A stretch of DNA of 64,000 nucleotides from a virus. The position numbers were made by a program, and so were the translations under genes. Below the pieces are notes generated by a model. It was not told where the DNA came from. It did not search any database and was given only the letters and a program-made list of their open reading frames with translations. Shown here one piece after another: positions 4,656-62,670 of the stretch (its first letter is position 1; every line of letters starts with the position of its first letter). The DNA is taken from the IMG/VR virus record IMGVR_UViG_3300034013_000676, positions 1 through 64,000 of that record; one strand, 5' to 3'.

Positions 4656-5174
4656 TTATAACCCAGTAATAGCCTGTGTACAAAGATTATCTACATACTC
4701 ATTATACCTTTTACCACTGTGAGCCTTGATATGTTTTATAACTAGTCCCGGTATTAATTGTTTAAACTCAATCATAATTTCATCAATTACCCTCCACATA
4801 TCTTGATTCATAATAGGAGTACCATTCTGTCTCCTCCAGCCTCTACTTTTCCAACCAGCCATCCACTCATTAACTCCTTTAACTACATACTGGGAATCAC
4901 AGAACAATATAATCTTAGGTTTCTCTAATCCCTTGATATCAACCCTTATAGGCCTAAGCTGATAGGGTTGATAAAACTTAAGTAATAATAATAAGCCCTG
5001 AACAAAAGCAGCTATCTCCATTTCATTGTTGGTAGTGTTCTTCTTAACGTTAACTACCTCTTCCTGAATTTTACCATTAAAAACAAGAATAGAGGCTGCT
5101 GCCCCTATTCCTGGATTAGGTCTACATCCACCATCTGTGTAGATATAGATTTTATCTCTAACTTTCTTACTCAT
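4656..5174 (-). CDS. rnhA: Ribonuclease HI
   Basis: 172 residues, close to the usual 150-160. It hydrolyses the RNA strand of RNA-DNA hybrids and would remove primers during phage replication. The four acidic residues of the active site are visible: D14 in YTDGG, E53 in NNEMEIAA, D93 in FCDSQYV and D162 in YVDNL, with the supporting His near 152 in KAHSGK. The start overlaps the ThyX stop by 8 bases. An insertion around residues 66-86 makes it a little longer than the E. coli enzyme. Confidence 0.92.
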   Translation of the reverse strand: MSKKVRDKIYIYTDGGCRPNPGIGAAASILVFNGKIQEEVVNVKKNTTNNEMEIAAFVQGLLLLLKFYQPYQLRPIRVDIKGLEKPKIILFCDSQYVVKGVNEWMAGWKSRGWRRQNGTPIMNQDMWRVIDEIMIEFKQLIPGLVIKHIKAHSGKRYNEYVDNLCTQAITGL

Positions 5175-5898
5175 TGATTCCTAAAGCTTTAGCAGTCATT
5201 GGGAAATTAGCTACAAAGATTTTCTTAATTTCCTCTGCAACTTCTCGGTGTTCCAATTGAGCATGTTGGTCACATCGTTGTTGCATATAATGAATCCATG
5301 AACGAATAGAACCATTAAGGTACATCGTAGTTGATGTAGCCATAGGTAAAACCATACGAGCACATTCTTTAGCGACACCAGCTTCTAATAAACCCCCATA
5401 AAGTGCTTGCATAGAATTTACTAAAGCTCCAACTACATAAGATGCTGGTAAATCCTTAGAAAGGTTTTGTAATAACATATCATTAAATACAGATTCGGGT
5501 AAGGTAGGGTCAAATACTTCTTCTGATGATTGGCGATTTTTAGCACCATTTTTACGAAGTTCAATAGGCTCAATATCTGTAACCTCTGCATACCTTTGAG
5601 AAAATTCTTGAGGCTTAATAGACCAGTGACGAAGTATTTGAATACCAATTGCCTTAGAAGTTGTTACCTCTACACAAAGGTTAATCATATCAAATGGTGA
5701 CCAATGTTTGTGATCAATCATATATTTGATTAGCTTATCCGATGTTTCGGTATTAAGTTGGTTTGAAGGATTTGATACACGAGCAATATAAACTAAGAGT
5801 TCTTCTGCTGTTAATTGACCATAGCCTACTAATTCGGGGTCATGGCCTGTTTCACCAGCTACAAAAGGCTTGGTAAGTGAAATTAATCTTACGTTCAT
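5167..5898 (-). CDS. thyX: Flavin-dependent thymidylate synthase ThyX
   Basis: 243 residues. It methylates dUMP to dTMP using FAD, NADPH and methylene-tetrahydrofolate. HWSPFD (residues 65-70) and the signature at residues 90-103 (RHWSIKPQEFSQRY) match the ThyX motif RHRxxSxxxxSxRY, except that the third position is Trp instead of Arg. The remaining R, S, S, R and Y are kept. It sits between dUTPase upstream and RNase HI downstream, so the operon makes and uses dUMP. The start chosen is the only ATG giving a full-length N-terminus. Confidence 0.9.
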   Translation of the reverse strand: MNVRLISLTKPFVAGETGHDPELVGYGQLTAEELLVYIARVSNPSNQLNTETSDKLIKYMIDHKHWSPFDMINLCVEVTTSKAIGIQILRHWSIKPQEFSQRYAEVTDIEPIELRKNGAKNRQSSEEVFDPTLPESVFNDMLLQNLSKDLPASYVVGALVNSMQALYGGLLEAGVAKECARMVLPMATSTTMYLNGSIRSWIHYMQQRCDQHAQLEHREVAEEIKKIFVANFPMTAKALGINE

Positions 5899-5920: not shown

Positions 5921-6385
5921 TTAGTAACCACGTTCTTGACGGTCAAAGTTTTCTTTGTTCTTAGCAACATACATAGAGGCTAATTCATCAGCAGTCATCC
6001 CAATTTTTACCATTTGGTTCATAAAGAAATGAAACTGATCCACTATCTCGTATTTAAGTTCTAGTAAATCCTCAGGATGCATATCGGATAGGGGAGTTGT
6101 TTGAGCTTGAGCATAATCTTTCTTCCACCATTTCCAAGCAGCTGAACCAAATCCCTTACCGATACCTCCAACAGCATCAATAGTTTCATGGATTTCATCA
6201 TTTAATGCATGAGCATTTGAAACAAAGAATTCAGCCACATGTCCTATTGAATTATAAGGACTGTAAAAATCTGGGCCCATTACTCTTTCTTGAAGAGATT
6301 TTTGCATAGCCAACATCTCTGTGAATGTTGGGGTAATTGTCAGGTCCAAAGGGAGCTGATGACATTTGTTGTCTGTGTTTGCCAT
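5921..6385 (-). CDS. Dimeric (all-alpha) dUTP diphosphatase
   Basis: 154 residues. This family (MazG-like, all-alpha dUTPase) hydrolyses dUTP to dUMP, keeping uracil out of DNA and supplying ThyX. The acidic metal-binding helices are visible: ALNDEIHETIDAVGG (E-x3-E pattern), WKWWKK, then ELKYEIVDQFHFF. The C-terminal YVAKNKENFDRQERGY matches the conserved Asn/Arg end motif of the family. It is directly upstream of thyX in the same operon. A MazG-type pyrophosphatase with other dNTP specificity is the main alternative. Confidence 0.82.
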   Translation of the reverse strand: MANTDNKCHQLPLDLTITPTFTEMLAMQKSLQERVMGPDFYSPYNSIGHVAEFFVSNAHALNDEIHETIDAVGGIGKGFGSAAWKWWKKDYAQAQTTPLSDMHPEDLLELKYEIVDQFHFFMNQMVKIGMTADELASMYVAKNKENFDRQERGY

Positions 6386-7881: not shown

Positions 7882-9381
7882 ATGGCAAAACAAGATTTTT
7901 ATAAAGGCTCTCTAAGTAGGCAGGAATTAGAAAACGTAATCAAGGCATCAAAAGACGTTTTCTTTTTTGCGATGTTTATATATGTGATACACCCCATTAT
8001 GGGTAAAACACAATTTAAACTTTATCCCTACCAACTATCAGTATTAAAATGTTTTATAACTCAGAGATTTAATATAATCCTTAAATTCAGGCAGGCGGGA
8101 GTAACTGAGTTAATATCCATGTATTGTTTATGGTTAGCAATGTTTCATCCCAATAAGAACATTGTAATTATATCTATTAAAGACCGTGTAGCTAAGAAAG
8201 TATTAAGGAAGATTAAATACATGTACAAGAATCTACCAGATTATATGAAGGTAGATATTGTAAATGGTAGAACTGGAGAATTCGGTACAGCCCAGGAGAT
8301 GGAGTTTTCCAATGGTTCAACTATATCTTCTATCCCAACAACAGAAGATGCGGGTAGATCAGAGGCTGTATCATTATTAGTAATTGATGAGGCAGCAATC
8401 GTAAGATGGGCTAACCAGATTTGGGCAGCTGCCTTCCCTACATTATCAACGGGAGGTTCTGCTATTGTAAACTCAACACCTTATGGGGTTGGGAATTGGT
8501 ATCATAAACAATGGGTAGATTCTATTTCAAATGGTAATGATTTCTTTCCTATTAGGTTATATTGGAAAATGCATCCTGAAAGGGATGATAAGTGGTACAT
8601 GCAAATGAGGGAATCACTGGGAGCTAGAAGAACAGCCCAGGAAATTGATGGAGATTTCTTAACCTCCGGTAACTCAGTATTTGACTTAGTACAGATAAAA
8701 GCAATAGAAGATATGTTAGGAGAATACCCTATGATATCAAGTAGATATAACAATGCCTTACGTATATTCAACCAACCAGAAGAAGACTTAAAATATTTCA
8801 TTGGGGCGGATATAGCTACGGGTAGGTCACGAGATTATTCTGCCTTTAGTATAATGGATAGGTACGGCGAGGAAGTAGCCTGTTTCAAAGGTAGGATGCC
8901 GGTAGATCAATTTGCTGATGTATTAATAGAGATGGGTTATAAATATAACAATGCATTAATAGCACCAGAAACCAATGATATTGGTTTAGCAGTTACATCA
9001 AGGCTTCAAACTCAAAATTATCCTAACCTTTATTATTCTACCCGTATCCTTAAAAAGAAAGGAAGTAAGAAAGCTCAAGTAGAAGATATACCAGGTTGGT
9101 TAACCACTTCAAAGAGTAGACCGGTAATGATTGACCAACTTGAGGAAGACCTTAGGAATGAGGAAGTTGAAATAAAAGACCCATTCTTTGTACAGGAAGC
9201 CTATACCTTTATATATGATGAATCCAATAGGCCAGTAGCTTTAGGAAAAAACAGAAGGTCTTCACAAGGTGAAGATGAACTAGAAGATGAATCATATACC
9301 GATGATGCTATCATGGCAAAAGCAATAACCAATTTCATAAGAAAGGCACCTTTAAGAGGTCCTATAATCCCCCCACAGTAA
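7882..9381 (+). CDS. terL: Terminase large subunit
   Basis: 499 residues. ATP-driven motor and nuclease that packages DNA into the prohead. The N-terminal ATPase has an atypical Walker A (KFRQAGVTE, residues 68-76), Walker B and catalytic Glu in LLVIDEAA (165-172) and the coupling motif VNSTP (196-200). The RNase H-like nuclease domain starts with GADIATG (D310), then APETND (E363) and ends with a Tyr-Thr-Asp-Asp cluster (about 476-481). It is followed by portal with a TAATG overlap. A small terminase subunit is not evident nearby. Confidence 0.93.
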   Translation: MAKQDFYKGSLSRQELENVIKASKDVFFFAMFIYVIHPIMGKTQFKLYPYQLSVLKCFITQRFNIILKFRQAGVTELISMYCLWLAMFHPNKNIVIISIKDRVAKKVLRKIKYMYKNLPDYMKVDIVNGRTGEFGTAQEMEFSNGSTISSIPTTEDAGRSEAVSLLVIDEAAIVRWANQIWAAAFPTLSTGGSAIVNSTPYGVGNWYHKQWVDSISNGNDFFPIRLYWKMHPERDDKWYMQMRESLGARRTAQEIDGDFLTSGNSVFDLVQIKAIEDMLGEYPMISSRYNNALRIFNQPEEDLKYFIGADIATGRSRDYSAFSIMDRYGEEVACFKGRMPVDQFADVLIEMGYKYNNALIAPETNDIGLAVTSRLQTQNYPNLYYSTRILKKKGSKKAQVEDIPGWLTTSKSRPVMIDQLEEDLRNEEVEIKDPFFVQEAYTFIYDESNRPVALGKNRRSSQGEDELEDESYTDDAIMAKAITNFIRKAPLRGPIIPPQ

Positions 9382-10943
9382 TGGCTCAAGCAAAAAACTT
9401 TTTTATGAGAACCTTTGATAGGTTAATGAGTAAACAATTAGAGATTAGTTCTACACCTTCACCGGATGTAGAACTTGTCGATGATAGAGATAATTTAGTT
9501 ACCAAAGAAGTTCCCATTAGAGGCGGTACAAGTAAACCTGTTCCACCAGGTAGAGTATCCAGACCAGAATATGAGAAAGATGATTTCACCAGGATATTAA
9601 ATGATTCAGACTTTGTAACTCCAGAGTTTATGTTGGACGTAATTCCCGGGATTAGAAGATTATCAAAAATAAATGAGGATTTGGGTTCTGTATATAATGA
9701 CTTAATCCAATTGACAAATACTGGCCATAATATTAAATTTGACCAAAGCATTGGACCAGAGAAAATAACCCAGATGAAAAAACACCTTAAGAGGGTTTCA
9801 AAGAATTGGGGTTCCGGGGTAGCTGGTATTAATGGGTTAGTTAATAAGATGGTAGGCCAAGTTTGGATATCCGGTGCTTTATCAAATGAGTGGGTTCCTA
9901 ATAAAGACTTAACTGGTATACAGAATAGTGTATTAGTTAATCCTGAAAATATTAGATTCAAATATAATCGAGCACTAGCTAGGTATGAGCCATACCAGAA
10001 AGTAAAAGGTATCATATTAGATGTAACCAAAAATAATTTGGTACAATTAAACCCCGCAACCTATTCCTATTATGGTATACTGGGTGATACAGATTCCCCT
10101 TATGGTATCCCACCTTTCATGACAGCATTAGAAGCCTTATCTACACAGGCCTTCATGAAAAAGAATATAAAACATATAATGAAACAATTGGGTATCTTAG
10201 GTTACCTACAAGTAAAGGTCGATAAACCACAACAAAGGGGTAATGAAAGCGAACCTAATTTCATAACCCGATTGGAAGGTTTACTTAAGAGAACCAAACA
10301 AAATGTAATTGATGGATTTGCTGATGGTGTAGTAGTGGGGTATGAAGGTGACCATGAATTTGAGTTTCATTCCACAACAAAAAACTTATCTGGAGTAGAT
10401 GCTATATATAATCAAAATCAGGTTCAGTTAGCAAATGGTTTAAAAACCAGTCCTTCATTTATAGGACAAGCTGGCGGGGGTACTGAGCAAAACATGAGTA
10501 TAGTATTTACAAAGATGCTTTCACAGTTAGCTAACGTACAGGAACTCATCATAGCTGAATTAGAGAAAGGTTATTTATTAGAATTAAACCTTGCTGGTTA
10601 TCCAATAACATCAGACCAGATAGATGTAGTATTTAAAGCTTCAACTATTACCGACGACCTTAAAATGTGGCAGGCTAAGGAAATTAAACAAAGGGTATTA
10701 CATAACTTAGCAGTAGATGGTATTATAGGCCAGGACCAATATGCTGAGGAAATGACATACGATAAACCCGCTTCTAAAACTCCAGTAGTACCATATAAGG
10801 AACAGGCGGGTAAAGGAGCTACTCCAGCTAATGCAGAGGGTAAACAGAAAAGGGAAAAGGACAAAGATACGTCAGATAGACGTAATAGGGATAGGAACAA
10901 AAAACAAACAAAAAGAAAAGACACTAACACTAAACCACAATAA
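9381..10943 (+). CDS. Portal protein
   Basis: 520 residues, starting inside the terL stop codon. Portals form the dodecameric ring at the head vertex through which DNA enters and leaves. The position between TerL and the protease/capsid genes, the length and the arrangement (N-terminal clip/wing region, long central helices around 330-430, Lys/Arg/Asp-rich disordered C-terminus from about 480) fit. TSPSFIGQAGGGTEQNMS near residue 355 resembles a conserved portal segment. I cannot name the subfamily. Confidence 0.85.
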   Translation: MAQAKNFFMRTFDRLMSKQLEISSTPSPDVELVDDRDNLVTKEVPIRGGTSKPVPPGRVSRPEYEKDDFTRILNDSDFVTPEFMLDVIPGIRRLSKINEDLGSVYNDLIQLTNTGHNIKFDQSIGPEKITQMKKHLKRVSKNWGSGVAGINGLVNKMVGQVWISGALSNEWVPNKDLTGIQNSVLVNPENIRFKYNRALARYEPYQKVKGIILDVTKNNLVQLNPATYSYYGILGDTDSPYGIPPFMTALEALSTQAFMKKNIKHIMKQLGILGYLQVKVDKPQQRGNESEPNFITRLEGLLKRTKQNVIDGFADGVVVGYEGDHEFEFHSTTKNLSGVDAIYNQNQVQLANGLKTSPSFIGQAGGGTEQNMSIVFTKMLSQLANVQELIIAELEKGYLLELNLAGYPITSDQIDVVFKASTITDDLKMWQAKEIKQRVLHNLAVDGIIGQDQYAEEMTYDKPASKTPVVPYKEQAGKGATPANAEGKQKREKDKDTSDRRNRDRNKKQTKRKDTNTKPQ

Positions 10944-41360: not shown

Positions 41361-41609
41361 ATGAAGTCATTACCATTTGAAGGCACAATAAAAATAGCTG
41401 AACACCAGGAGGAATATGAAACAGTTCATGCACACTTAGGTAGAGATACTACCCATTCTCAAATACCGATAATAACTGTTTGCTTTGAATTAAGTGAAGA
41501 GGAGAAAAAGGTAATATTAGAAACAGGTAAGATATGGTACCAACAATGTTCATTACAAATGCGACCTATGAGCTTATCAGTAATTAAACCCGAATTAAAA
41601 GATAGATAA
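41361..41609 (+). CDS. Unknown 82-residue protein
   Basis: Mixed alpha/beta; YETVHAHLGRDTTHSQIPI and VCFELSEEEKKVILETGKIWYQQ resemble a small regulatory or structural domain. No catalytic motif. The stop overlaps the next start (TAATG). It heads the operon that leads to the TS-fold proteins and DNA polymerase. Confidence 0.5.
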   Translation: MKSLPFEGTIKIAEHQEEYETVHAHLGRDTTHSQIPIITVCFELSEEEKKVILETGKIWYQQCSLQMRPMSLSVIKPELKDR

Positions 41610-41992
41610 TGGCTAAGAAAAGAAAACCCCGAAAAGATATAGTAAAGAAGGTTGATTTACTAAAACCCTTAAGTTCAATTGACATACTTAAATTTGGTAC
41701 AGATGAAGACCCTTGCTTTGGTAAACTTTTTGATTTAACCGAAGACCCATGTAGAAGATGTGGAGATTCCACGCTTTGTCAAATTGTAAGTAACCAAAAG
41801 ACAGTAGCTAAAAGAGAAGAGGTAGAAAGTAATAATCGTTTTAAGGATTTAGAACTTGATGATTTTAAAGCTAAAGCACTAATTAAAAAATTAAGAAAAA
41901 AGAAAACAAGTGACGAGGCTATAAAAAATAAATTGGAAAGAAGGTTCGGCTATGAGCCTAAGAAAATAAAACAATTATTAAAAGGAAAGTAA
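41609..41992 (+). CDS. Small Cys-rich, Lys-rich protein
   Basis: 127 residues. Residues 30-58 contain four Cys (PCFGKLF, DPCRRCGDSTLCQIV), spacing C-x12-C-x2-C-x5-C, suitable for binding zinc or an Fe-S cluster. The rest is helical and basic (LIKKLRKKKTSDEAIKNKLER). Coupled at both ends by TAATG to neighbours. It may assist the TS-fold enzyme downstream or bind nucleic acid; neither is demonstrated. Confidence 0.55.
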   Translation: MAKKRKPRKDIVKKVDLLKPLSSIDILKFGTDEDPCFGKLFDLTEDPCRRCGDSTLCQIVSNQKTVAKREEVESNNRFKDLELDDFKAKALIKKLRKKKTSDEAIKNKLERRFGYEPKKIKQLLKGK

Positions 41993-42930
41993 TGGTAAAT
42001 GAACAGAAGTTAATGAAGGTATTAGAGTACTCAGATTCCCAAACAGCATGGGAACATTTGAATGAGTACTTCTTAAATAACCAGGAAGAGATACTTGAAA
42101 GGGGGGGAGCTAGATATGGTCCCCAATTGGTGTCTTATGATGTAATGATACATATAAGAAAAGCTTGGGTAGATCCTAAGTTTGACTTCGGTAATACTTT
42201 CGGTTACAGGAAACAGAAATGGACATCATTGGTTAACAATTATATCAATATGAATTACCTTGATATCCTAAAGGCTGAAGTATTGGAAAAGGTAACCAAG
42301 AAAAACCAAAGCTATAACCTCTCTATGAGATTTGATAACTCACATGGTTCTGGTAAAAACTGTTTATTATCATTAACTGTATCTAAAAGGATAGGATTAG
42401 AACATCCTATATTCATCTTCAACCTTAGGTCATCTGAGATAACTAAAAGGTTATTATGGGATTTACTTCTAGTACAAAGAATAGCTGAATATATATATGG
42501 AAATAAAGAACATATAAGTATTAAACTATTCTGTGGTAATATGTACCAAAATACAGAGTCTTTTATTATGTATAACAATCATAAAAAGATAAAAGATGTT
42601 CTAATCCCAATGGGGACAAAAACTAATGGTAAACCTAAATACAGTCTATGGCAGGAAAGGGCTACACAGATTTTAGAGGAATTTAAAAATGTGGACCCTA
42701 AGACTGTTAAGTTCAAGGTTCACCTTAGGTCAGTTAATCAAATACAGAGATGTAAGAATGGGCACCCTTTATCTGGTAACCGACCATTATTAGCTAAGGA
42801 ATGTATCATTGGGGAATCATTTAAAGTCCCATACCCAGAAGATTGCATCACAAGTGCAGAAAGAAAAAAATTCAAGAGGGGACACTTAAGAAAACTAAAG
42901 AGAGATGAAGACAGACAAAAGTCCAAGTAA
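41992..42930 (+). CDS. Thymidylate-synthase-fold protein, possible nucleotide-modifying enzyme (first of a pair)
   Basis: 312 residues. Not a standard thymidylate synthase by overall sequence, but the core is recognisable: SGKNCLLSLTV holds a possible catalytic Cys, 22 residues later FNLRSSEIT matches the RSxD phosphate-binding motif (here RSSE), eight residues after that Glu comes Asp (LLWDLLLVQ), then LFCGNMYQN replaces the GDxHxY-type end. The Cys-to-Arg distance in E. coli TS is 20. An Asp at the +8 position is typical of dCMP-specific relatives. The C-terminus has a possible zinc site (CKNGHPL). Coupled to the second TS-like gene. Confidence 0.55.
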   Translation: MVNEQKLMKVLEYSDSQTAWEHLNEYFLNNQEEILERGGARYGPQLVSYDVMIHIRKAWVDPKFDFGNTFGYRKQKWTSLVNNYINMNYLDILKAEVLEKVTKKNQSYNLSMRFDNSHGSGKNCLLSLTVSKRIGLEHPIFIFNLRSSEITKRLLWDLLLVQRIAEYIYGNKEHISIKLFCGNMYQNTESFIMYNNHKKIKDVLIPMGTKTNGKPKYSLWQERATQILEEFKNVDPKTVKFKVHLRSVNQIQRCKNGHPLSGNRPLLAKECIIGESFKVPYPEDCITSAERKKFKRGHLRKLKRDEDRQKSK

Positions 42931-43807
42931 TATCCTAAAATACATGGCTGATAAACATGATATTAATCAATTAATAAAGGACTATACTCACCCAGAAGAA
43001 GTAGTCCTTTCAGAGCTAAAACCTAAAAGGAGATTAGCTGGAATATGGCAAGGCATAGATAATTATAAAGATATGACCATGTTAGTTAAAAGGGATGTAA
43101 CATTAAAAATATGTATCCCAGTATGCCCTGTAATACTTCAGGATATTACATTAGCAGATCAACCCTGGTCTGAGGCTCATTTTCAGGAAAGAGTAGGAGG
43201 TCAACCTTTAAATCCGGGTGAGTCCTATAAGATATGGCCTTATGCTAACTTCAATAAAAATACTGAGTTTAGGAAAGATGAAAAATTCGACCATAGTTAT
43301 ATGGAAAGGTTTTGGCCAAAGTTTGCGGGTTATGCCCAATTTGACGGTTTAGGTTTAAAGAATTGTAACGAACTAAGGGAATCAGATAATTTAGGTATTA
43401 GGTTTAAATATGGGGATTATAATGATGTTATCCAACAATTAACCAGAAACACTCTTACAAGGCAAGCTTACCTACCTATATTTTTCCCAGAAGATACCGG
43501 AGCAAAAAACAATATAAGAGTACCATGTACATTGGGTTATTTATTTGAAATTTGGGATGGTAAATTAGATATGACCTATTACATTCGTTCATGTGACGTA
43601 TTCCGTCATTTTCGTAATGATATTTATCTTGCAGGTAGATTGATACAACATACTACTAATATACTATTACTAAATGGAATAGATATTAAACCGGGTGAAT
43701 TGAATATGAAGATTAATAACCTTCATGCATTCGAAAATGATATTTACGCTTTAAAACAAAAAGAGAAACGATTATGCAAAGAATTGAAAGAGAACAATAT
43801 TTCATAG
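42905..43807 (+). CDS. Thymidylate-synthase-fold protein, possible dCMP hydroxymethylase-like (second of a pair)
   Basis: 300 residues. RQAYLPIFFPED resembles the start of the TS core, RVPCTLGYLFEI holds the catalytic Cys, and MTYYIRSCDVF holds RSxD exactly 20 residues after the Cys, the same distance as in E. coli TS. At +8 from this Asp the residue is Asp (FRNDIY), where dUMP-specific TS has Asn and T4 dCMP hydroxymethylase has Asp. MKINNLHAFEND matches the HxY/F end motif. The enzyme would transfer a one-carbon unit to dCMP or a related nucleotide. It overlaps the previous gene by 26 bases and the deaminase by 34. Confidence 0.62.
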   Translation: MKTDKSPSNILKYMADKHDINQLIKDYTHPEEVVLSELKPKRRLAGIWQGIDNYKDMTMLVKRDVTLKICIPVCPVILQDITLADQPWSEAHFQERVGGQPLNPGESYKIWPYANFNKNTEFRKDEKFDHSYMERFWPKFAGYAQFDGLGLKNCNELRESDNLGIRFKYGDYNDVIQQLTRNTLTRQAYLPIFFPEDTGAKNNIRVPCTLGYLFEIWDGKLDMTYYIRSCDVFRHFRNDIYLAGRLIQHTTNILLLNGIDIKPGELNMKINNLHAFENDIYALKQKEKRLCKELKENNIS

Positions 43808-44196
43808 AAATTGCTAAAATTACTGCCAAGAGATCAATCTGCCCCCGCAAACAAGTAGGGGCAGTTTTGGTTAAAGATGGGCGTATAATAGCCACGGGGT
43901 ACAATGGAGTATTACCTAAGGAAGAACATAAATTTGCTTTAAACCCCGACGGATCATCAGCTACTATACATGCTGAGGCTAACCTAATAGCTTTTTGTGC
44001 TAAGGAGGGTATACCCACAAAAGGTACAACACTTTATACAACATTATCACCTTGTGATAAATGTGCTGAACTAATCATACAGGCCGGTATTATTAAGGTT
44101 AATTATATTGAGGAATATAGAGATTTAACCGGGGTAATTACATTGGTAAATAATGATATTGATATAAACCTTAAATGGGGAAAAAATGAAATCTGA
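43774..44196 (+). CDS. Deoxycytidylate deaminase
   Basis: 140 residues. Zinc-dependent deaminase that turns dCMP into dUMP for ThyX. The zinc-site residues are seen in ATIHAEANLI (HAE) and LSPCDKCAELI (PCxxC). KQVGAVLVKDGRIIATGYNGV is the usual N-terminal strand pair. It overlaps the TS-like gene upstream and the polymerase start downstream (ATG 44186). Confidence 0.88.
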   Translation: MQRIEREQYFIEIAKITAKRSICPRKQVGAVLVKDGRIIATGYNGVLPKEEHKFALNPDGSSATIHAEANLIAFCAKEGIPTKGTTLYTTLSPCDKCAELIIQAGIIKVNYIEEYRDLTGVITLVNNDIDINLKWGKNEI

Positions 44197-46462
44197 ATAT
44201 AAACTAATAACCAAGAAAAAGCATGTGGACAAACTCATAACTTATGTAAAGCAAACGGGTTATTGTTCTTTTGACTTTGAGACGAATGCCAGGCCATTTC
44301 ATGATCCCTTATTCTTACCCACCATAATAGGTATATCATTTCAACCAGGCTCTGGGTACATAATACCATTAGCTCATAAGGATTCACCGTTTAAAAGGAA
44401 AGGTATATGGTTGGATATCCTAAAGAAAATAGGTAAAGAGCTAATCTCAAATCCTAGGATTATTAAAGTTGCCTGGAATGCTAGTTTTGAACTTAAGGTA
44501 TTAAAGCTTTATAAAATCGAAGTTAAAGGTAGATTATTCGATGGTATAATGGCTAAATATTTACTTAAAGAGGAACGACCAAATGGTTTAAAAGAACAGG
44601 TAACGTCATTATTACCTTTCTTTGCAGATTATGATTTAAAAGGTAAACCCTCATCAAAGGCTAAACGTGAAAAGATTATAGAATTTTGGACTAACGTTGA
44701 ACTTAATGAACTATCTAAATATTGTGCTCTAGACTGTGACCTAACTCTACGATTAATGATGTTTTATGAGAAACTCTTATTAAAACATGACTTCTATAAA
44801 TTGTTTAGGAATATGTTGATGATGGGCACCAGAGTATTATCAGATTCTGAGTATCACGGTATGCCTGTAGACCAAAAATTCCTTGAAGGCTTAGTAGTAA
44901 CTTATGGTGAGAGGGTAATTGAGTTAGAGAAAGAGCTTTACAAACACCCAATCATATCTAAATTCGAGAAAGGCCTAGTAAAAGACAGGGTTAAAAAATA
45001 TATATTTAAAATCGAAACTGAGATTGAGGATATAGAAATAGAAATGAAGGAGATGGATGCCAATTATAGAGAGTTGGTACTTAGTCGGGATAATGAAGCT
45101 GCCCGTAGGGTTATGAATAAAATAAATGCTAAAGCTAAATTGATTAAATCCCGAGAGGAGAAGATTGATAGGATAATAGCACATGATTTTAGGACTAAAG
45201 GCGAACAAAAGATGTTAGAGAAGGTTAATTTTGCTTCTCCCGAACAAATGGTCCAATTGTTTCATAAATCACCCTATGGGTTTAGGTTTAAAGTAGTTAA
45301 ATACACTGTCGACGAATTTAAAAAAGAAACAGATAGACCTTCAACTGATGAGGAAGTATTAACTGAGTTAATGACTAAGGATAAATCAGGTTTTATCGAA
45401 AGGTTATTAGAATTTAGGGGTACATCTAAATTATACTCTACCTATATCGTTGGTATGAAAGACATCTTATCGGTTGATTCAAGGATACACCCCTCATATT
45501 TATTATTTGGGACAGTTACAGGTAGATTATCATCCATAAACCCTAATTTCCAAAATATACCCCGAGATACAACCAATGCTGATATCAAGAAAATGTTTAT
45601 ACCTCCAAAAAATAAAATATTACTACAGCTGGATTACTCTCAAGCTGAGTTAAGGGTAATGGCGGCACAGGCAAATGAAACAGAGATGCTACGTTGGTTT
45701 AGAGAAGGAAGAGATATTCACTTAGCTGTTGCATGTGATAAAAACAAATGGGATTATGAGTGGGCATTACCTATATATTTAAAAGAGGATAAAGCAGACC
45801 CCAATTACACCAAAATAAAGGTAGAACGTAAATATGCTAAAACAATTAACTTTGGTATTATCTATGGGCAAACAGCAAATAAACTTTCCATTGGAATGGG
45901 TACATCAATCAAGGAGGCTGAGATATATCTAAAGGAATATAACAAACGTTTCCCTAATATCGCTAAATTCATCAAGAAACAAAATGCTTATGCCGAAAGA
46001 CACGGCTTCGTTAAAAATATATTTGGTAGAAAACGAAGGTTACCTAATATTTGGCATTCAGAATGGGGTAAAAAAGCTGAAGCACAAAGACAATCGGTAA
46101 ATGCTCCAATTCAGGGAGCAGCTTCTGATTATACATTGTTCTCATCTATCCTTATTTGGGAAAAAATCAGAAAAGGGGAATTACCAAAAGATATGATACA
46201 ATGTTATACTGTACATGATTCACTAGGATTCTTCTTAGACCCAAAAGATGTTCATTGGGTAGTTCCTATATTAGATGAAATTTGTTCTAACCCCGAAACG
46301 ATGGAATGGTTTGGTTTTCAAATCGATTCGGTTAAAATGCAAGTTGATTTTGAGGTAAGTCATATAAGCTGGGCTAAATTAAGTACATACCATAAGAATG
46401 AAGATTACATTAAACCCACTAGAAACTTCAACAGGGTAGAATATAATAAGCAAGTGGCTTAG
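44186..46462 (+). CDS. polA: DNA polymerase I family A
   Basis: 758 residues. Replicative polymerase of the phage. It has a 3'-5' proofreading domain (SFDFETNA, Asp and Glu near residues 29-31; WNASFELKVL; later Asp near 186 in CALDCDLTLRL) and a polymerase domain: motif A LDYSQAELRV (about residue 483), motif B RKYAKTINFGIIYG (about 550) and motif C YTVHDSLGFF (about 676). There is no 5'-3' exonuclease domain; that function is encoded separately at 49100. Confidence 0.93.
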   Translation: MKSEYKLITKKKHVDKLITYVKQTGYCSFDFETNARPFHDPLFLPTIIGISFQPGSGYIIPLAHKDSPFKRKGIWLDILKKIGKELISNPRIIKVAWNASFELKVLKLYKIEVKGRLFDGIMAKYLLKEERPNGLKEQVTSLLPFFADYDLKGKPSSKAKREKIIEFWTNVELNELSKYCALDCDLTLRLMMFYEKLLLKHDFYKLFRNMLMMGTRVLSDSEYHGMPVDQKFLEGLVVTYGERVIELEKELYKHPIISKFEKGLVKDRVKKYIFKIETEIEDIEIEMKEMDANYRELVLSRDNEAARRVMNKINAKAKLIKSREEKIDRIIAHDFRTKGEQKMLEKVNFASPEQMVQLFHKSPYGFRFKVVKYTVDEFKKETDRPSTDEEVLTELMTKDKSGFIERLLEFRGTSKLYSTYIVGMKDILSVDSRIHPSYLLFGTVTGRLSSINPNFQNIPRDTTNADIKKMFIPPKNKILLQLDYSQAELRVMAAQANETEMLRWFREGRDIHLAVACDKNKWDYEWALPIYLKEDKADPNYTKIKVERKYAKTINFGIIYGQTANKLSIGMGTSIKEAEIYLKEYNKRFPNIAKFIKKQNAYAERHGFVKNIFGRKRRLPNIWHSEWGKKAEAQRQSVNAPIQGAASDYTLFSSILIWEKIRKGELPKDMIQCYTVHDSLGFFLDPKDVHWVVPILDEICSNPETMEWFGFQIDSVKMQVDFEVSHISWAKLSTYHKNEDYIKPTRNFNRVEYNKQVA

Positions 46463-49113: not shown

Positions 49114-49993
49114 GGTATTAGTAATTGATGGTAATAATATGTTATATCGAGCATATTATAAATTCGAAAATTTACAAAATAACCATGGCCAATTAACTGG
49201 AGTAATTTATGGGTTCCCTTATATTTTAAGGGGACTCATTAGTTTACACAAACCCCAGAAGGTAGTGGTAGTATTTGATGGAGGCCGAGATAAGAGAAGA
49301 ACTGAGATTTTACCCGAATACAAGAAAAGGGATAAAAAGGCGGGATTTGATGGAGAATCATTTTTCTTTCAAAAAGAGAAGGTTAAGGAATTGTTGGATT
49401 TATTAGGTATTCCAATGATAGAGGTTAAAAAGAGAGAAGCTGATGATATTATCTGGTTGATAGCTCGTAAATTAAAACGGGAAAAACATGAGGTAGTCAT
49501 AGTATCATCGGATAAGGATTTTAACCAATTAATCTGTAAGGGTATTTCAATATGGAATCCTAAAAGTGATAAGCGATATACTCATCTTAATTTGAAACAA
49601 GAAGTTGGATATAATGCTAATCAATGTGTAGATTATTTAATACTTGATGGGGACTCTTCGGATAATATAAAAGGTATGCCTGGGATTGGTCCTAAAAAAG
49701 CTATGGCATTCCTTGATAGAGGGATATCAATTAGAAACTATTTAATTAGTAAAGATAAAGAACTACCCGGACTTAGTAGAAATAAACTAGAACCCGTTTT
49801 CTTATTAAACCGCGAGCTAATTGATATACGTATCTTTTGTAGGAGAAACTTAAAACATTTAAAAGTTAAAGTCCCTAAAGTAACTCTGAAAAAAATAAAT
49901 AAAAAAGAATTAGCCTATTTCTGTGCTAATTATGATATTTCAACATTTGTAAAACCAGACTTCATAGAAACCTTTAACAAGTTATTAAAATGA
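49100..49993 (+). CDS. 5'-3' exonuclease (FEN-type)
   Basis: 297 residues. Removes RNA primers and 5' flaps. Metal-binding acidic residues are in VLVIDGNNML (Asp 8), VVVVFDGGRDKRR, KREADDIIWL (two Asp), VSSDKDFNQL and LILDGDSSDNIKGMPGIGPKKA, the last being the helix-hairpin-helix. It provides the function missing from the polymerase and complements RNase HI. Confidence 0.9.
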   Translation: MSKNKVLVIDGNNMLYRAYYKFENLQNNHGQLTGVIYGFPYILRGLISLHKPQKVVVVFDGGRDKRRTEILPEYKKRDKKAGFDGESFFFQKEKVKELLDLLGIPMIEVKKREADDIIWLIARKLKREKHEVVIVSSDKDFNQLICKGISIWNPKSDKRYTHLNLKQEVGYNANQCVDYLILDGDSSDNIKGMPGIGPKKAMAFLDRGISIRNYLISKDKELPGLSRNKLEPVFLLNRELIDIRIFCRRNLKHLKVKVPKVTLKKINKKELAYFCANYDISTFVKPDFIETFNKLLK

Positions 49994-50673
49994 AACCACA
50001 ACCAATCTTTATAACTGGTACGTCCGGTATCGGTAAAACCACACTTGCTAATTACATAGCAGCAAAATACAGAATACCCTTTATAAATGGGTCTTCCTCT
50101 GTTTTATGGAAAAAATATAATATTAGTTCCCATAAAGAACTACTAGAAATGGGAGTTAATAACCCTAATAAAGGAATAGATTTCCAATTGGAATTACTCA
50201 ATTATAGAGAAGAACTAATAAAGAAGACAGGTAATACTCATTTCGTAACTGATAGGAGTATAATAGATAACCTAGTTTACTTCATGTTTCAAAATTCACC
50301 CTACCTAAGTGAACAAGATACTGTTCATTATATAAATTCCTGTATTGAAAGCTTTCAAAATATATTAGAGTTATGTACTCCAAATGCAAGGTATAAAATG
50401 ATTTACCTTAGTAGAGATTTTTACCCTGATGATGAAATGCCAGTAATAGAAAATGATAGTAAGAGAATCACTAATGAATACTACCAAGATGTAATGTCTG
50501 CTATATTTAACCATGTGATTGATAACAACTTATTGGACTTTAATCATACACCAGAAAAATACCTTAAAATAAGAGATTATAACTGGGATAGGAGATTAGC
50601 TCTAACCGAAACTTTCTTAGAGAAAGAACCTAATATGTTCGATCATTTATATAACAATTGGATTTTGAAATAA
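49990..50673 (+). CDS. P-loop nucleoside/nucleotide kinase-like protein
   Basis: 227 residues. FITGTSGIGKTTLAN at residues 7-21 is a Walker A; TDRSIIDNLVYF (about 92-103) resembles the substrate-binding/DR segment of deoxynucleoside kinases and AAA_28-type ATPases; the LSRDFYPDDEM segment (about 142-152) may be the lid. It could phosphorylate dNMPs for the ThyX/deaminase pathway, or be another small NTPase. It is followed at once by SbcD (TAATG). Confidence 0.6.
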   Translation: MKPQPIFITGTSGIGKTTLANYIAAKYRIPFINGSSSVLWKKYNISSHKELLEMGVNNPNKGIDFQLELLNYREELIKKTGNTHFVTDRSIIDNLVYFMFQNSPYLSEQDTVHYINSCIESFQNILELCTPNARYKMIYLSRDFYPDDEMPVIENDSKRITNEYYQDVMSAIFNHVIDNNLLDFNHTPEKYLKIRDYNWDRRLALTETFLEKEPNMFDHLYNNWILK

Positions 50674-53519: not shown

Positions 53520-54062
53520 ATGAGTAACGGTAAAAGAAAAGGTAACAAAGCTGAAAGGGAACTGGCTAAATGGTGGAAAACATGGTCAGGCTTTGAATTT
53601 ACTCGGGTACCAGCTTCTGGGGGATTAAGGTGGAAAACTATGGTTAACACAACCACCTCAGATTTAATATGTGCTGATGACCGACACAATAGAAGGTTTC
53701 AATTCTCAATTGAATCTAAATCCTATAAGGATATAAACTTCGAACATCTTATATTGGGTAACAAGAACTCAGCAATAAGGAATTTCTGGGACCAATGTAA
53801 TACAGATGCAGAAAGAAGTAATAAGGTACCCATACTCTTTATGAGGTACAATGGTATGTCTAAAAATACCTGGTTTGTAGTAATGCCTAGTTACGTATAT
53901 AACCTATTCTTTCCTACACTAGTTAAATTTGATCACAATAGGTTTGTAGTAAGTGGACCTGATAACATTGTCATCATGAACTCAAATGATTTACTAAAAA
54001 CAGATTATATGAAACTTCACTTAACCCTTAAAAAATTAAGAAAGAATGACAAAGCAGAATAA
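53520..54062 (+). CDS. PD-(D/E)XK endonuclease, Holliday-junction-resolvase-like
   Basis: 180 residues. KGNKAERELAKWWK is the N-terminal acidic helix (catalytic Glu), TSDLICADD supplies the metal-binding Asp and FSIESKSYKD the ExK motif. This is the archaeal Hjc/phage resolvase arrangement. It could cut recombination junctions or heads of concatemers before packaging. It overlaps the NusG-like gene by 17 bases. Confidence 0.72.
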   Translation: MSNGKRKGNKAERELAKWWKTWSGFEFTRVPASGGLRWKTMVNTTTSDLICADDRHNRRFQFSIESKSYKDINFEHLILGNKNSAIRNFWDQCNTDAERSNKVPILFMRYNGMSKNTWFVVMPSYVYNLFFPTLVKFDHNRFVVSGPDNIVIMNSNDLLKTDYMKLHLTLKKLRKNDKAE

Positions 54063-54774
54063 GTTACCCAAAAAAGTATGGTGCATAGCTTACATTAATC
54101 GTGACAAATTAGAATTGGTAGAAACAGAGTTAAGAAGGTATGGTTATAAAGTTGAGGCTTATATCCCAACAGTTAAAATCCTTAAGAAGAAATTTAAGAA
54201 CAAGGACGTATTTGAGGAAACCCCTTTATTATTTAATTATGGATTCTTTAGGTTAAAGTATAATGATGCATGTAACCCAGATTTCTTAATGGAACTAAGG
54301 AGCCGGATTACGTGCATTTATGCTTGGGTAAAGGACCCAATATCCAATCTATCTAAATTAGGTAAACTAAGGATGGATAACCATAACTTTATAAAAGCTA
54401 TGCCAGCCTCTGCCATTTGCACAGACCAAGAAGTTGCCAACTTGGTTAAGGAAGCAGAAAAATCTAGTGTATTTTCAGCTGATGAAATTAATAGACTAAG
54501 TAAGGGGGATTATATTACACTTAAGGGTTACCCATTTGATGATATGCCAGCAAAAATCATAAGTATCAATAAGAGTAATAAAACTGTAAGAGTAAAACTT
54601 TTAACAGAAGGTATATTTGATAAGGTTACACTAGCTTTCGAGAATGTATTCTACACAGTTTACCAGGGTTATGATGATAGCCTAACTAAGGGTGATAACT
54701 ATGATGAAATGATTGCCAATAAACACAAAACCAATAAGGTTGATAAAATGATATTCGAAAACTATGGCGAGTAA
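54046..54774 (+). CDS. NusG/RfaH-like transcription factor
   Basis: 242 residues. The N-terminal NGN-like domain (residues 10-75): KVWCIAYINRDKLELVE, RYGYKVEAYIPTVK, then ETPLLFNYGFFRL. A C-terminal KOW-like domain at about 165-210 reads LSKGDYITLKGYPFDDMPAKI then NKTVRVKLL. NGN proteins bind RNA polymerase and alter pausing/termination; a phage paralog could act as an antiterminator through the many terminators of this genome. The middle stretch (85-160) is longer than usual. Confidence 0.72.
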   Translation: MTKQNKLPKKVWCIAYINRDKLELVETELRRYGYKVEAYIPTVKILKKKFKNKDVFEETPLLFNYGFFRLKYNDACNPDFLMELRSRITCIYAWVKDPISNLSKLGKLRMDNHNFIKAMPASAICTDQEVANLVKEAEKSSVFSADEINRLSKGDYITLKGYPFDDMPAKIISINKSNKTVRVKLLTEGIFDKVTLAFENVFYTVYQGYDDSLTKGDNYDEMIANKHKTNKVDKMIFENYGE

Positions 54775-57686: not shown

Positions 57687-58397
57687 ATGGCAAAAGAAGC
57701 AAAAAAATCCCAATTCGAAATCTCTGACTTAGAGGGGAAAAAGTTGAAAACTGTAAATGAGCTAGGAAATGGCTTCGCTCGTTTAACATTCGAAGGAGGC
57801 TCAGCAATCGTTGCACAAGTAGTACCAATAGCAATGACCGTTAAAGGTTCTGCTGAAGAGGATGATGAAGATGAGGATGAAGTATCTGTAGAGGATATGA
57901 AAGTCGCTCTTCTTGAATCTGGTATGACCAAAAAGGCTTTAAACAAATTATCTGATGAGGCTCTTCAAGAAGCATTCGAAGCTTTAACCGAGGATGAAGA
58001 CGAAGAGGAAGAGGATGATGAAGACGAAGAGGAAGAGGATGATGAAGAGGAAGAAGAGGAAGAAGAGGATGATGACGAAGATGATGAGGATGATGACGAA
58101 GATGATGAGGATGATGACGAAGATGAAGAAGATGAGGATGATGACGAAGATGATGAGGATGATGAGGATGAAGAGGAAGATGATGAGGATGATGAGGATG
58201 AAGAGGAAGAGGATGATGAGGATGAATCTGCGGGCATTACCAAATCTGAATTAGAGGAAGCTGACTTCGACGACTTGGAGGATATGATTGATGACAACGA
58301 ATATGACATCGACATTGAAGAGTACGATGCTGATAACAAAAAATCAGTTGAGAAATTAAGAAAAGCAGTTGCCAAAGCAGCTGGTATCAAATTGTAA
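57687..58397 (+). CDS. Acidic protein with a long Glu/Asp tract and SAP-like ends
   Basis: 236 residues. Residues 1-65 form a small beta-type domain (KLKTVNELGNGFARLTFEGG); residues 68-99 include a helical segment VEDMKVALLESGMTKKALNKLS. Residues 105-185 are almost only Glu and Asp from repeated GAW/GAT codons. The end (TKSELEEADFDDLEDMI...KLRKAVAKAAGI) is again helix-like, similar to SAP/HeH ends. The acidic tract could mimic DNA or bind a basic protein. The next gene encodes a basic protein. Confidence 0.6.
   Translation: MAKEAKKSQFEISDLEGKKLKTVNELGNGFARLTFEGGSAIVAQVVPIAMTVKGSAEEDDEDEDEVSVEDMKVALLESGMTKKALNKLSDEALQEAFEALTEDEDEEEEDDEDEEEEDDEEEEEEEEDDDEDDEDDDEDDEDDDEDEEDEDDDEDDEDDEDEEEDDEDDEDEEEEDDEDESAGITKSELEEADFDDLEDMIDDNEYDIDIEEYDADNKKSVEKLRKAVAKAAGIKL
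58004..58226. repeat. Low-complexity GAW/GAR repeat coding for Glu/Asp
   Basis: Imperfect repetition of gatgaagacgaagaggaag-like units. In other frames it makes poly-Ser and Met/Arg/Lys ORFs that are shadows. Such repeats can expand and contract by slippage. Confidence 0.8.
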
Positions 58398-62143: not shown

Positions 62144-62284
62144 ATGGGAAATCCTAAAATCGAACCTAAAATAGTAAAACTGGAAACTGTATCAAAAACC
62201 CTAAATGGTTGCATGGTGACAATGGGTATAATACTTTGTATAGGTTGCTTAGCAATCCTATTATCTATACTCTTTTCAAACTAA
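62144..62284 (+). CDS. 46-residue membrane protein
   Basis: An in-frame ATG at 62108 would give 58 residues, but it is only 5 bases after the TATATTTG box, at or upstream of the probable transcription start, so the start at 62144 is chosen. The protein has a charged N-terminus and a hydrophobic C-terminal helix (CMVTMGIILCIGCLAILLSILF). Its stop overlaps the next start (TAATG). First gene behind a host-type promoter; a small membrane protein made early could interfere with host processes (inference). Confidence 0.5.
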   Translation: MGNPKIEPKIVKLETVSKTLNGCMVTMGIILCIGCLAILLSILFSN

Positions 62285-62670
62285 TGGCACTAAAAAGAGT
62301 ATGGTTAATATTAAAGGTGGAAGGAACTGATAAGCTCCTTATCCTTAAAAGAAGTAAGAGCTCCAATAACCCCAAACAATGGGATTTTATAGGAGGCTCA
62401 TCCCAAGGTAAAATTAAACCGAGAAAACTTATCAGGAAAGAATCCCTTGAAGAAATCGGTTTTATCCCTAGGATGAGCCTCCTATCAACTTTCTATAAAA
62501 AGGGAAGTGTCTATCACTATTATATTGGGGTAATCAAGAAAACAGAGTTAATTAATATCCAATTGAATTATGAACATAGTAAATTTGATACGCTAGAATT
62601 ACATAAGCTACGTAAAAAAAGGAAACTCCATCACTCTGTTAAGTTTTATTTGTCAAATGTAAATAACTAA
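62284..62670 (+). CDS. Nudix-fold hydrolase-like protein with degenerate box
   Basis: 128 residues from ATG 62284, set by the TAATG overlap with the membrane protein; the 25 codons upstream are in another gene's frame. A Nudix fold is suggested by LLILKRSKSSNNPKQWDFIGG followed by GKIKPRKLIRKESLEEIGF. Compared with Gx5Ex7REUxEExGU, the first Glu is Ile and the Arg of RE is Lys, while the two Glu of EE and the final G-aliphatic are kept. It may be an inactive or unusual nucleotide-diphosphatase. Confidence 0.65.
   Translation: MALKRVWLILKVEGTDKLLILKRSKSSNNPKQWDFIGGSSQGKIKPRKLIRKESLEEIGFIPRMSLLSTFYKKGSVYHYYIGVIKKTELINIQLNYEHSKFDTLELHKLRKKRKLHHSVKFYLSNVNN

Follow-up and report, generated by a model that had tools for sequence, protein, structure and literature searches.

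The viral DNA analysed here, a window of 64 kb out of a 77,888-bp IMG/VR virus record, encodes two consecutive and overlapping genes, gp1 and gp2, whose products belong to the thymidylate synthase (TS) superfamily, the former as judged from its predicted structure and the latter from family and profile matches, its conserved residues being of cytosine type. Taking both proteins together, it appears probable, though well short of certain, that gp2 is a folate-dependent dCMP 5-hydroxymethylase and that gp1 is either a non-folate enzyme that binds a cytosine nucleotide covalently or an asymmetric partner. The genes relevant to this interpretation are the following.

5167-5898, minus strand: ThyX (PF02511, 5e-39)
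5921-6385, minus strand: all-alpha dUTPase (dUTPase_2; PF08761, 6e-8)
41609-41992, plus strand: small Cys-rich protein (DPCFGK...CxxCGD...C) upstream of gp1; no known family
41992-42930, plus strand: gp1, divergent TS-fold protein of 312 aa (phrog_34294; no Pfam or NCBIfam family)
42905-43807, plus strand: gp2, TS superfamily, cytosine type, predicted dCMP 5-hydroxymethylase of 300 aa (Pfam, PHROG, profile, fold and conservation)
43774-44196, plus strand: dCMP deaminase, overlapping gp2 (PF00383, 5e-25)
44186-46462, plus strand: family A DNA polymerase, overlapping the dCMP deaminase gene; constant neighbour of the cassette (PF00476)
49990-50673, plus strand: thymidylate/deoxynucleotide-kinase-like P-loop protein (phrog_2107, 4e-10)

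The gp1 and gp2 genes, which the preliminary description had located correctly, overlap by 26 nt, the start codon of gp2 being uncertain because a second ATG occurs at 42944. Searches for a DNA glycosyltransferase or a carbamoyltransferase in the window and in part of the remaining genome found none. Other features of the window are a NusG-like transcription antiterminator (54046-54774; phrog_6386, 1.5e-6), an ORF with a very long run of nearly pure Asp and Glu (57687-58397) and a NUDIX hydrolase (62209-62670).

Both proteins had been described as carrying a Cys followed by an RSxD/E motif with an Asp at +8, and this arrangement proved confined to the pair within the window and conserved in their relatives. 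In gp1, Cys124 is 22 residues from Arg146, which begins R-S-S-E149, and Asp157 is at +8; in gp2, Cys208 is 20 residues from Arg228, which begins R-S-C-D231, and Asp239 is at +8. The pattern Cys-x(19-21)-R[STA]x[DE]-x7-Asp was matched by 2 of the 135 ORFs of the window, gp1 and gp2, while composition-preserving shuffles of 64 real ORFs gave a mean of 0.016 matching proteins, with not one of the 500 trials yielding two. A profile-profile alignment of the two families (hhalign) placed the Cys, Arg and Asp of one opposite their counterparts in the other at an E-value of 2.2e-5, with a modest probability of 77%.

The cytosine-type enzyme gp2 and its predicted product

Membership of gp2 in the TS superfamily is supported by Pfam (PF00303, 1.5e-8) and by PHROGs (thymidylate synthase, 1e-28). 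The closest PDB sequence, in single-sequence as well as profile searches, is the CMP hydroxymethylase MilA, followed among the nearest solved proteins by TS mutants and AfhB, and MilA is also the best fold match (9.6e-12). A tblastn search with gp2 matched 504 phage records, most of them labelled thymidylate synthase, and 80 IMG/VR loci of gp2 relatives were fetched. One relative, from Gordonia phage Cozz (L087, 5917-6795), is noted as 'ThyX', yet it matches the gp2 (ThyA-type) family. Conservation was counted over 169 unique relatives, and the residues of interest in gp2, all on the plus strand, are listed below; positions 147 and 177 follow the numbering of E. coli TS.

43187-43189, plus strand: Glu95, candidate for TS Glu58 (Glu in 164 and Asp in 5 of 169; assigned by conservation only)
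43298-43300, plus strand: Tyr132 (TS Tyr94)
43460-43462, plus strand: Arg186 (TS Arg126, which holds the phosphate of the substrate in the partner subunit)
43526-43531, plus strand: Cys208-Thr209 (TS Cys146 and position 147; aligned relatives)
43586-43597, plus strand: Arg228-Ser-Cys-Asp231 (Arg166, Ser167 and the folate Asp169; aligned relatives)
43619-43621, plus strand: Asp239 (position 177, the dCMP/dUMP discriminator; aligned relatives)

Cys208, Arg186, Arg228 and Tyr132 are present in 169/169 relatives each. The pterin-contacting Asp231 (position 169, T4 Asp171) is kept in 168, and the same number have Thr or Ser at residue 209 (position 147). The residue at +8, proposed earlier to occupy the discriminating position, is indeed the position-177 Asp, found in 168 of the 169. 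The exception is the aligned enzyme of phage M6, which we take to be a phage of the hydroxymethyluracil lineage; this TS homologue (L091, 43970-45025) has Asn where gp2 has Asp, according to a hand alignment with a one-residue insertion. Glu95 is a near-invariant Glu that may correspond to the catalytic Glu60 of T4, the alignment of this segment being uncertain. With respect to the partner arginines (T4 Arg123 and Arg124), the first is kept in 169/169 and the second, equivalent to TS Arg127, is replaced by Gln or Lys (Gln187 in gp2). The protein ends 26 residues past His274 (the His207 position) and the C-terminal tail of TS is absent.

These features resemble those of T4 gp42 dCMP hydroxymethylase (1b5d, 6a9a), which shares with gp2 the catalytic Cys, the Asp179 position, the pterin Asp171, the RSxD motif, the 'FRND' string and the absence of the tail; it differs in that gp2 is only distantly related to it and carries Gln/Lys for Arg124. 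In T4, dCMP specificity is set by Asp179 (PMC6400193). MilA (5b6d, 5jnh), the closest solved structure by sequence and fold, also has Asp at 177 and Thr after the Cys, but its C-terminal domain is absent from gp2, which has Ser and Arg instead of Ala176 and Lys133. As Ala and Lys select ribose in MilA (PMC5175136), the Ser and Arg of gp2 lead to the expectation of a deoxyribose substrate, that is, dCMP. It is already known that TS homologues of the Asp177 type occur in cytosine-modified phages: according to the MetaGPA report (PMC8670742), those encoded in cytosine-modified phage contigs carry Asp at 177 and differ at position 147, as gp2 does, and are likewise linked to a pyrophosphohydrolase and a dCMP deaminase; the sections consulted mention no second, gp1-like protein, and the carbamoyltransferase of those contigs was not found here. 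Taken together, Asp177, Thr/Ser147, the FRND string, the absent tail and the Ser/Arg pair indicate that gp2 is of the cytosine type, and the analogy with T4 makes folate-dependent 5-hydroxymethylation of dCMP its most likely activity. This fits the cytosine-nucleotide role put forward in the preliminary description.

The names given to gp2 in Pfam, PHROGs and GenBank would agree with gp1 and gp2 both being ordinary thymidylate synthases, as most gp2 database annotations say, but this is highly improbable. Asp and Thr stand in gp2 where TS has Asn177 and His147, with Asp177 and Thr/Ser147 occurring across the family, the TS equivalogs of NCBIfam score far under their cut-offs, and, as had been pointed out, the ThyX encoded in the window makes a role in dTMP synthesis unnecessary. 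Methylation of dCMP to 5-methyl-dCMP is also very unlikely: a TS with Asn177 changed to Asp yields this product, as cited in PMC8670742, but gp2 does not have the C-terminal tail with which TS closes its active site for the hydride transfer step, a tail which is missing as well in T4 dCMP hydroxymethylase.

The main rival for the product is hydroxylation, since the gp2 profile prefers RB69 gp48 (4e-20, the best reference protein) over T4 gp42 (1.6e-12). Under this alternative gp2 would be a flavin-dependent dCMP 5-hydroxylase of the AfhB/RB69 gp48 type, producing 5-hydroxy-dCMP; the assignment of RB69 gp48 as such a synthase derives from PDB titles, the RB69 sequence and a citing paper. The AfhB structures 9iqu and 9iqc are among the PDB profile matches of gp2 (~5e-12), and most gp2 proteins have Phe at the Tyr209 position, like RB69 gp48. 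Conversely, the folate-dependent MilA ranks slightly above 9iqu in the same profile search, Trp is found at 111 in 125/169 gp2 proteins where RB69 gp48 has Tyr, and the pterin-binding Asp, kept in nearly all gp2 proteins, is Asn in RB69 gp48, a distinguishing mark of the AfhB type that is proposed here from this one sequence. Based on this evidence, hydroxylation is considered unlikely, although less so than methylation.

Following the precedent of T4 dCMP hydroxymethylase, Cys208 of the predicted 5-hydroxymethylase would attack C6 of dCMP, Asp239 would recognize and protonate the cytosine, C5 would receive a one-carbon unit from methylene-THF, and water rather than hydride would complete the reaction to give 5-hydroxymethyl-dCMP. 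By a broader analogy with T4, the kinase-like protein may convert the modified nucleotide to the triphosphate, the dUTPase and the dCMP deaminase may balance the pools, and the family A polymerase may synthesize DNA with the modified cytosine. We infer that the phage DNA contains a modified cytosine.

The divergent TS-fold protein gp1

The search of gp1 against Pfam, NCBIfam and PDB sequences gave nothing usable, and the only family model that matched it was PHROG 34294 (1.6e-5), which carries no function and covers part of the gp1 diversity. Its AlphaFold2 model (pLDDT 91.6) has a TS fold with a shortened middle region. Using Foldseek, the best PDB matches were the phage dCMP hydroxylase AfhB (E 1.9e-6), MilA and T4 dCMP hydroxymethylase, and those in a viral library were uncharacterised phage proteins followed by TS and dCMP hydroxymethylases; the earlier suggestion that both proteins have a TS fold thus held for gp1 by model and for gp2 by family and fold, with MilA as its best match. 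An iterated profile search from gp1 picked up, for most gp2 loci, the ORFs that precede gp2, and started to touch gp2 itself. In one scan of genome contigs, gp1 occurred in two loci, both on MAG contigs, and it is essentially a phage gene. The residues below were evaluated in 166 unique relatives.

42241-42243, plus strand: Tyr84 (165/166)
42361-42363, plus strand: Cys124, aligned with the TS nucleophile (166/166)
42427-42429, plus strand: Arg146, TS Arg166 position (166/166)
42436-42438, plus strand: Glu149, position of the folate-binding TS Asp169 (Glu 107, Tyr 54 and Asp 4 of 166)
42460-42462, plus strand: Asp157, TS position 177 (166/166)

In addition, 165/166 have Lys or Arg at position 76, and Arg246 is kept in 152/166. 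The Arg126 position is Gln/Ser in gp1 and mostly not Arg in its relatives, the local alignment being uncertain, and Arg127 is mostly missing too. The invariant Cys, Arg and Asp suggest that gp1 binds a nucleotide and probably attacks it, and the replacement of the pterin-binding Asp169, characteristic of folate-dependent TS and hydroxymethylases, suggests that the capacity to use folate was lost. The closest solved fold, AfhB of phage HY126 (9iqu, 9iqc), has the cytosine-type Asp and, judging by the titles of PDB entries, AfhB and RB69 gp48 use the TS fold without folate. Compared to AfhB, gp1 is 14% identical with no sequence-level match, has a hydrophobic residue at 147 and is shortened in the middle. 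A decayed copy of a TS is therefore not an obvious description of a protein whose Cys, Arg and Asp are invariant; judged by these residues, gp1 resembles an active enzyme of cytosine nucleotides or a partner protein.

Gene order and the relationship between gp1 and gp2

In the nearest relatives a helicase gene is followed by those for the small Cys-rich protein, gp1, gp2, dCMP deaminase and polymerase A, with one small ORF in between in L001. In phages of Gordonia, Microbacterium, Streptomyces, Pseudomonas, Mycobacterium, Brevundimonas and Yersinia, the order is kinase, MazG/dUTPase-type protein, gp1, gp2, often dCMP deaminase, and polymerase A. In the T4 region examined, no gp1-like twin was present. 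In named phages gp1 is annotated as 'hypothetical protein', except for 'pyrimidine hmase synthase' in Yersinia phage P744, whose paper makes no mention of DNA modification, and gp2 as 'thymidylate synthase'. Several relatives conserve the small Cys-rich protein immediately before gp1 or before the cassette.

Three scans performed from gp1 families, with gp2 unused, gave 135 gp1 loci, of which 131 contained gp2 in the flank, mostly directly downstream; this is a descriptive figure because the loci were not dereplicated and the gp1 queries were taken from gp2-linked members. Among the four loci without gp2, one reaches a contig end and in the other three the cassette continues. No gp2 was found elsewhere in these three records, which are fragmentary and were searched without a positive control. 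Their gp1 proteins (L202, 6001-6885; L195, 2541-3326; L147, 1664-2575) have the Cys, Arg and Asp intact. Reciprocally, gp1 was found in 69 of 96 gp2 loci, gp2 often being alone, and the presence of gp1 on the gp2 tree requires at least 7 changes, against ~15 for shuffled labels. No gp1-gp2 fusion turned up.

Other arrangements of TS-like genes were observed as well. A third, shorter paralogue (178-205 aa) with the same Cys...RSxE...Asp pattern, labelled hypothetical or dCMP deaminase, follows closely behind gp2 in the Pseudomonas phages Almagne and PMBT14 and in other phages (L079, 8798-9415; L060, 8966-9502; L092, 7257-7805; L217, 6439-6984; L218, 6448-6996), and Gordonia phage Yakult has a relative of it. 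Human-gut phages contain two gp1-like genes together with gp2 (L004, 6992-8759; L005, 6923-8762; L006, 6115-8714), with the gp1-like pair separated by a ThyX-like gene in L006 and an HNH-type ORF (9153-9662) between gp1 and gp2 in L005.

The preliminary description had considered a diverged and possibly heterodimeric partner. Its first part was borne out, gp1 being a diverged TS-fold protein that nearly always neighbours gp2, but the heterodimer itself is no more than a possibility. In an obligate heterodimer, gp2 would lend Arg186 across the interface, as TS subunits do, and gp1 would have a structural or regulatory role with no catalysis of its own. The overlapping genes, the constant order and the near-universal adjacency are in line with this, as is the fact that gp1 has lost the partner Arg126, and its relatives mostly Arg127 too, while gp2 keeps Arg126; furthermore, the sites of TS, T4 dCMP hydroxymethylase and MilA are built from both subunits. 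Nevertheless, an invariant Cys, Arg and Asp would be needless in a pure scaffold, the three contigs that keep gp1 without gp2 are at odds with a strict dependence on gp2, and the active-site residues of gp2, including Gln187 for Arg127, do not differ between phages that have gp1 and phages that lack it. Compensation by gp1 for the lost Arg127 of gp2 was rejected, as Gln is found in gp2 proteins of both kinds. Co-evolution as a complex was likewise not supported: with the polymerase as control, the gp1-gp2 distance correlation was no higher than shared descent (partial r -0.12 overall in 128 loci, 0.07-0.29 within groups). An obligate heterodimer is therefore regarded as doubtful, at perhaps one chance in a few. 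In the preferred reading, gp1 and gp2 would share one cytosine nucleotide pool, gp1 acting alongside gp2 or at a later step; it would bind the same cytosine nucleotide covalently and act as a non-folate enzyme or as an asymmetric partner.

Implications for phage nucleotide metabolism

As far as the accessible literature shows, neither the gp1 family nor its TS fold, invariant Cys/Arg/Asp core or link to gp2 has been described. A bolder proposal, which we regard as tentative and less likely than not, is that gp1 founds a folate-independent class of TS-fold enzymes that would use the invariant Cys, Arg and Asp to form the usual covalent adduct with dCMP or with the gp2 product and carry out other C5 or exocyclic-methylene chemistry, resulting in an undescribed cytosine modification in phages of Gordonia, Mycobacterium, Streptomyces, Pseudomonas, Yersinia and gut bacteria.

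Genes of the gp2 type are labelled 'thymidylate synthase' in many phages, including the cultured Gordonia phage Cozz and Mycobacterium phage Muddy, and since their specificity residue is that for cytosine, many phages may carry an overlooked modified cytosine. Present beside such enzymes in well over 100 contigs of phages, gp1 represents a widespread TS-fold family labelled 'hypothetical', and elucidating its reaction might bring to light either a novel modified base or a TS-type enzyme composed of unlike subunits.
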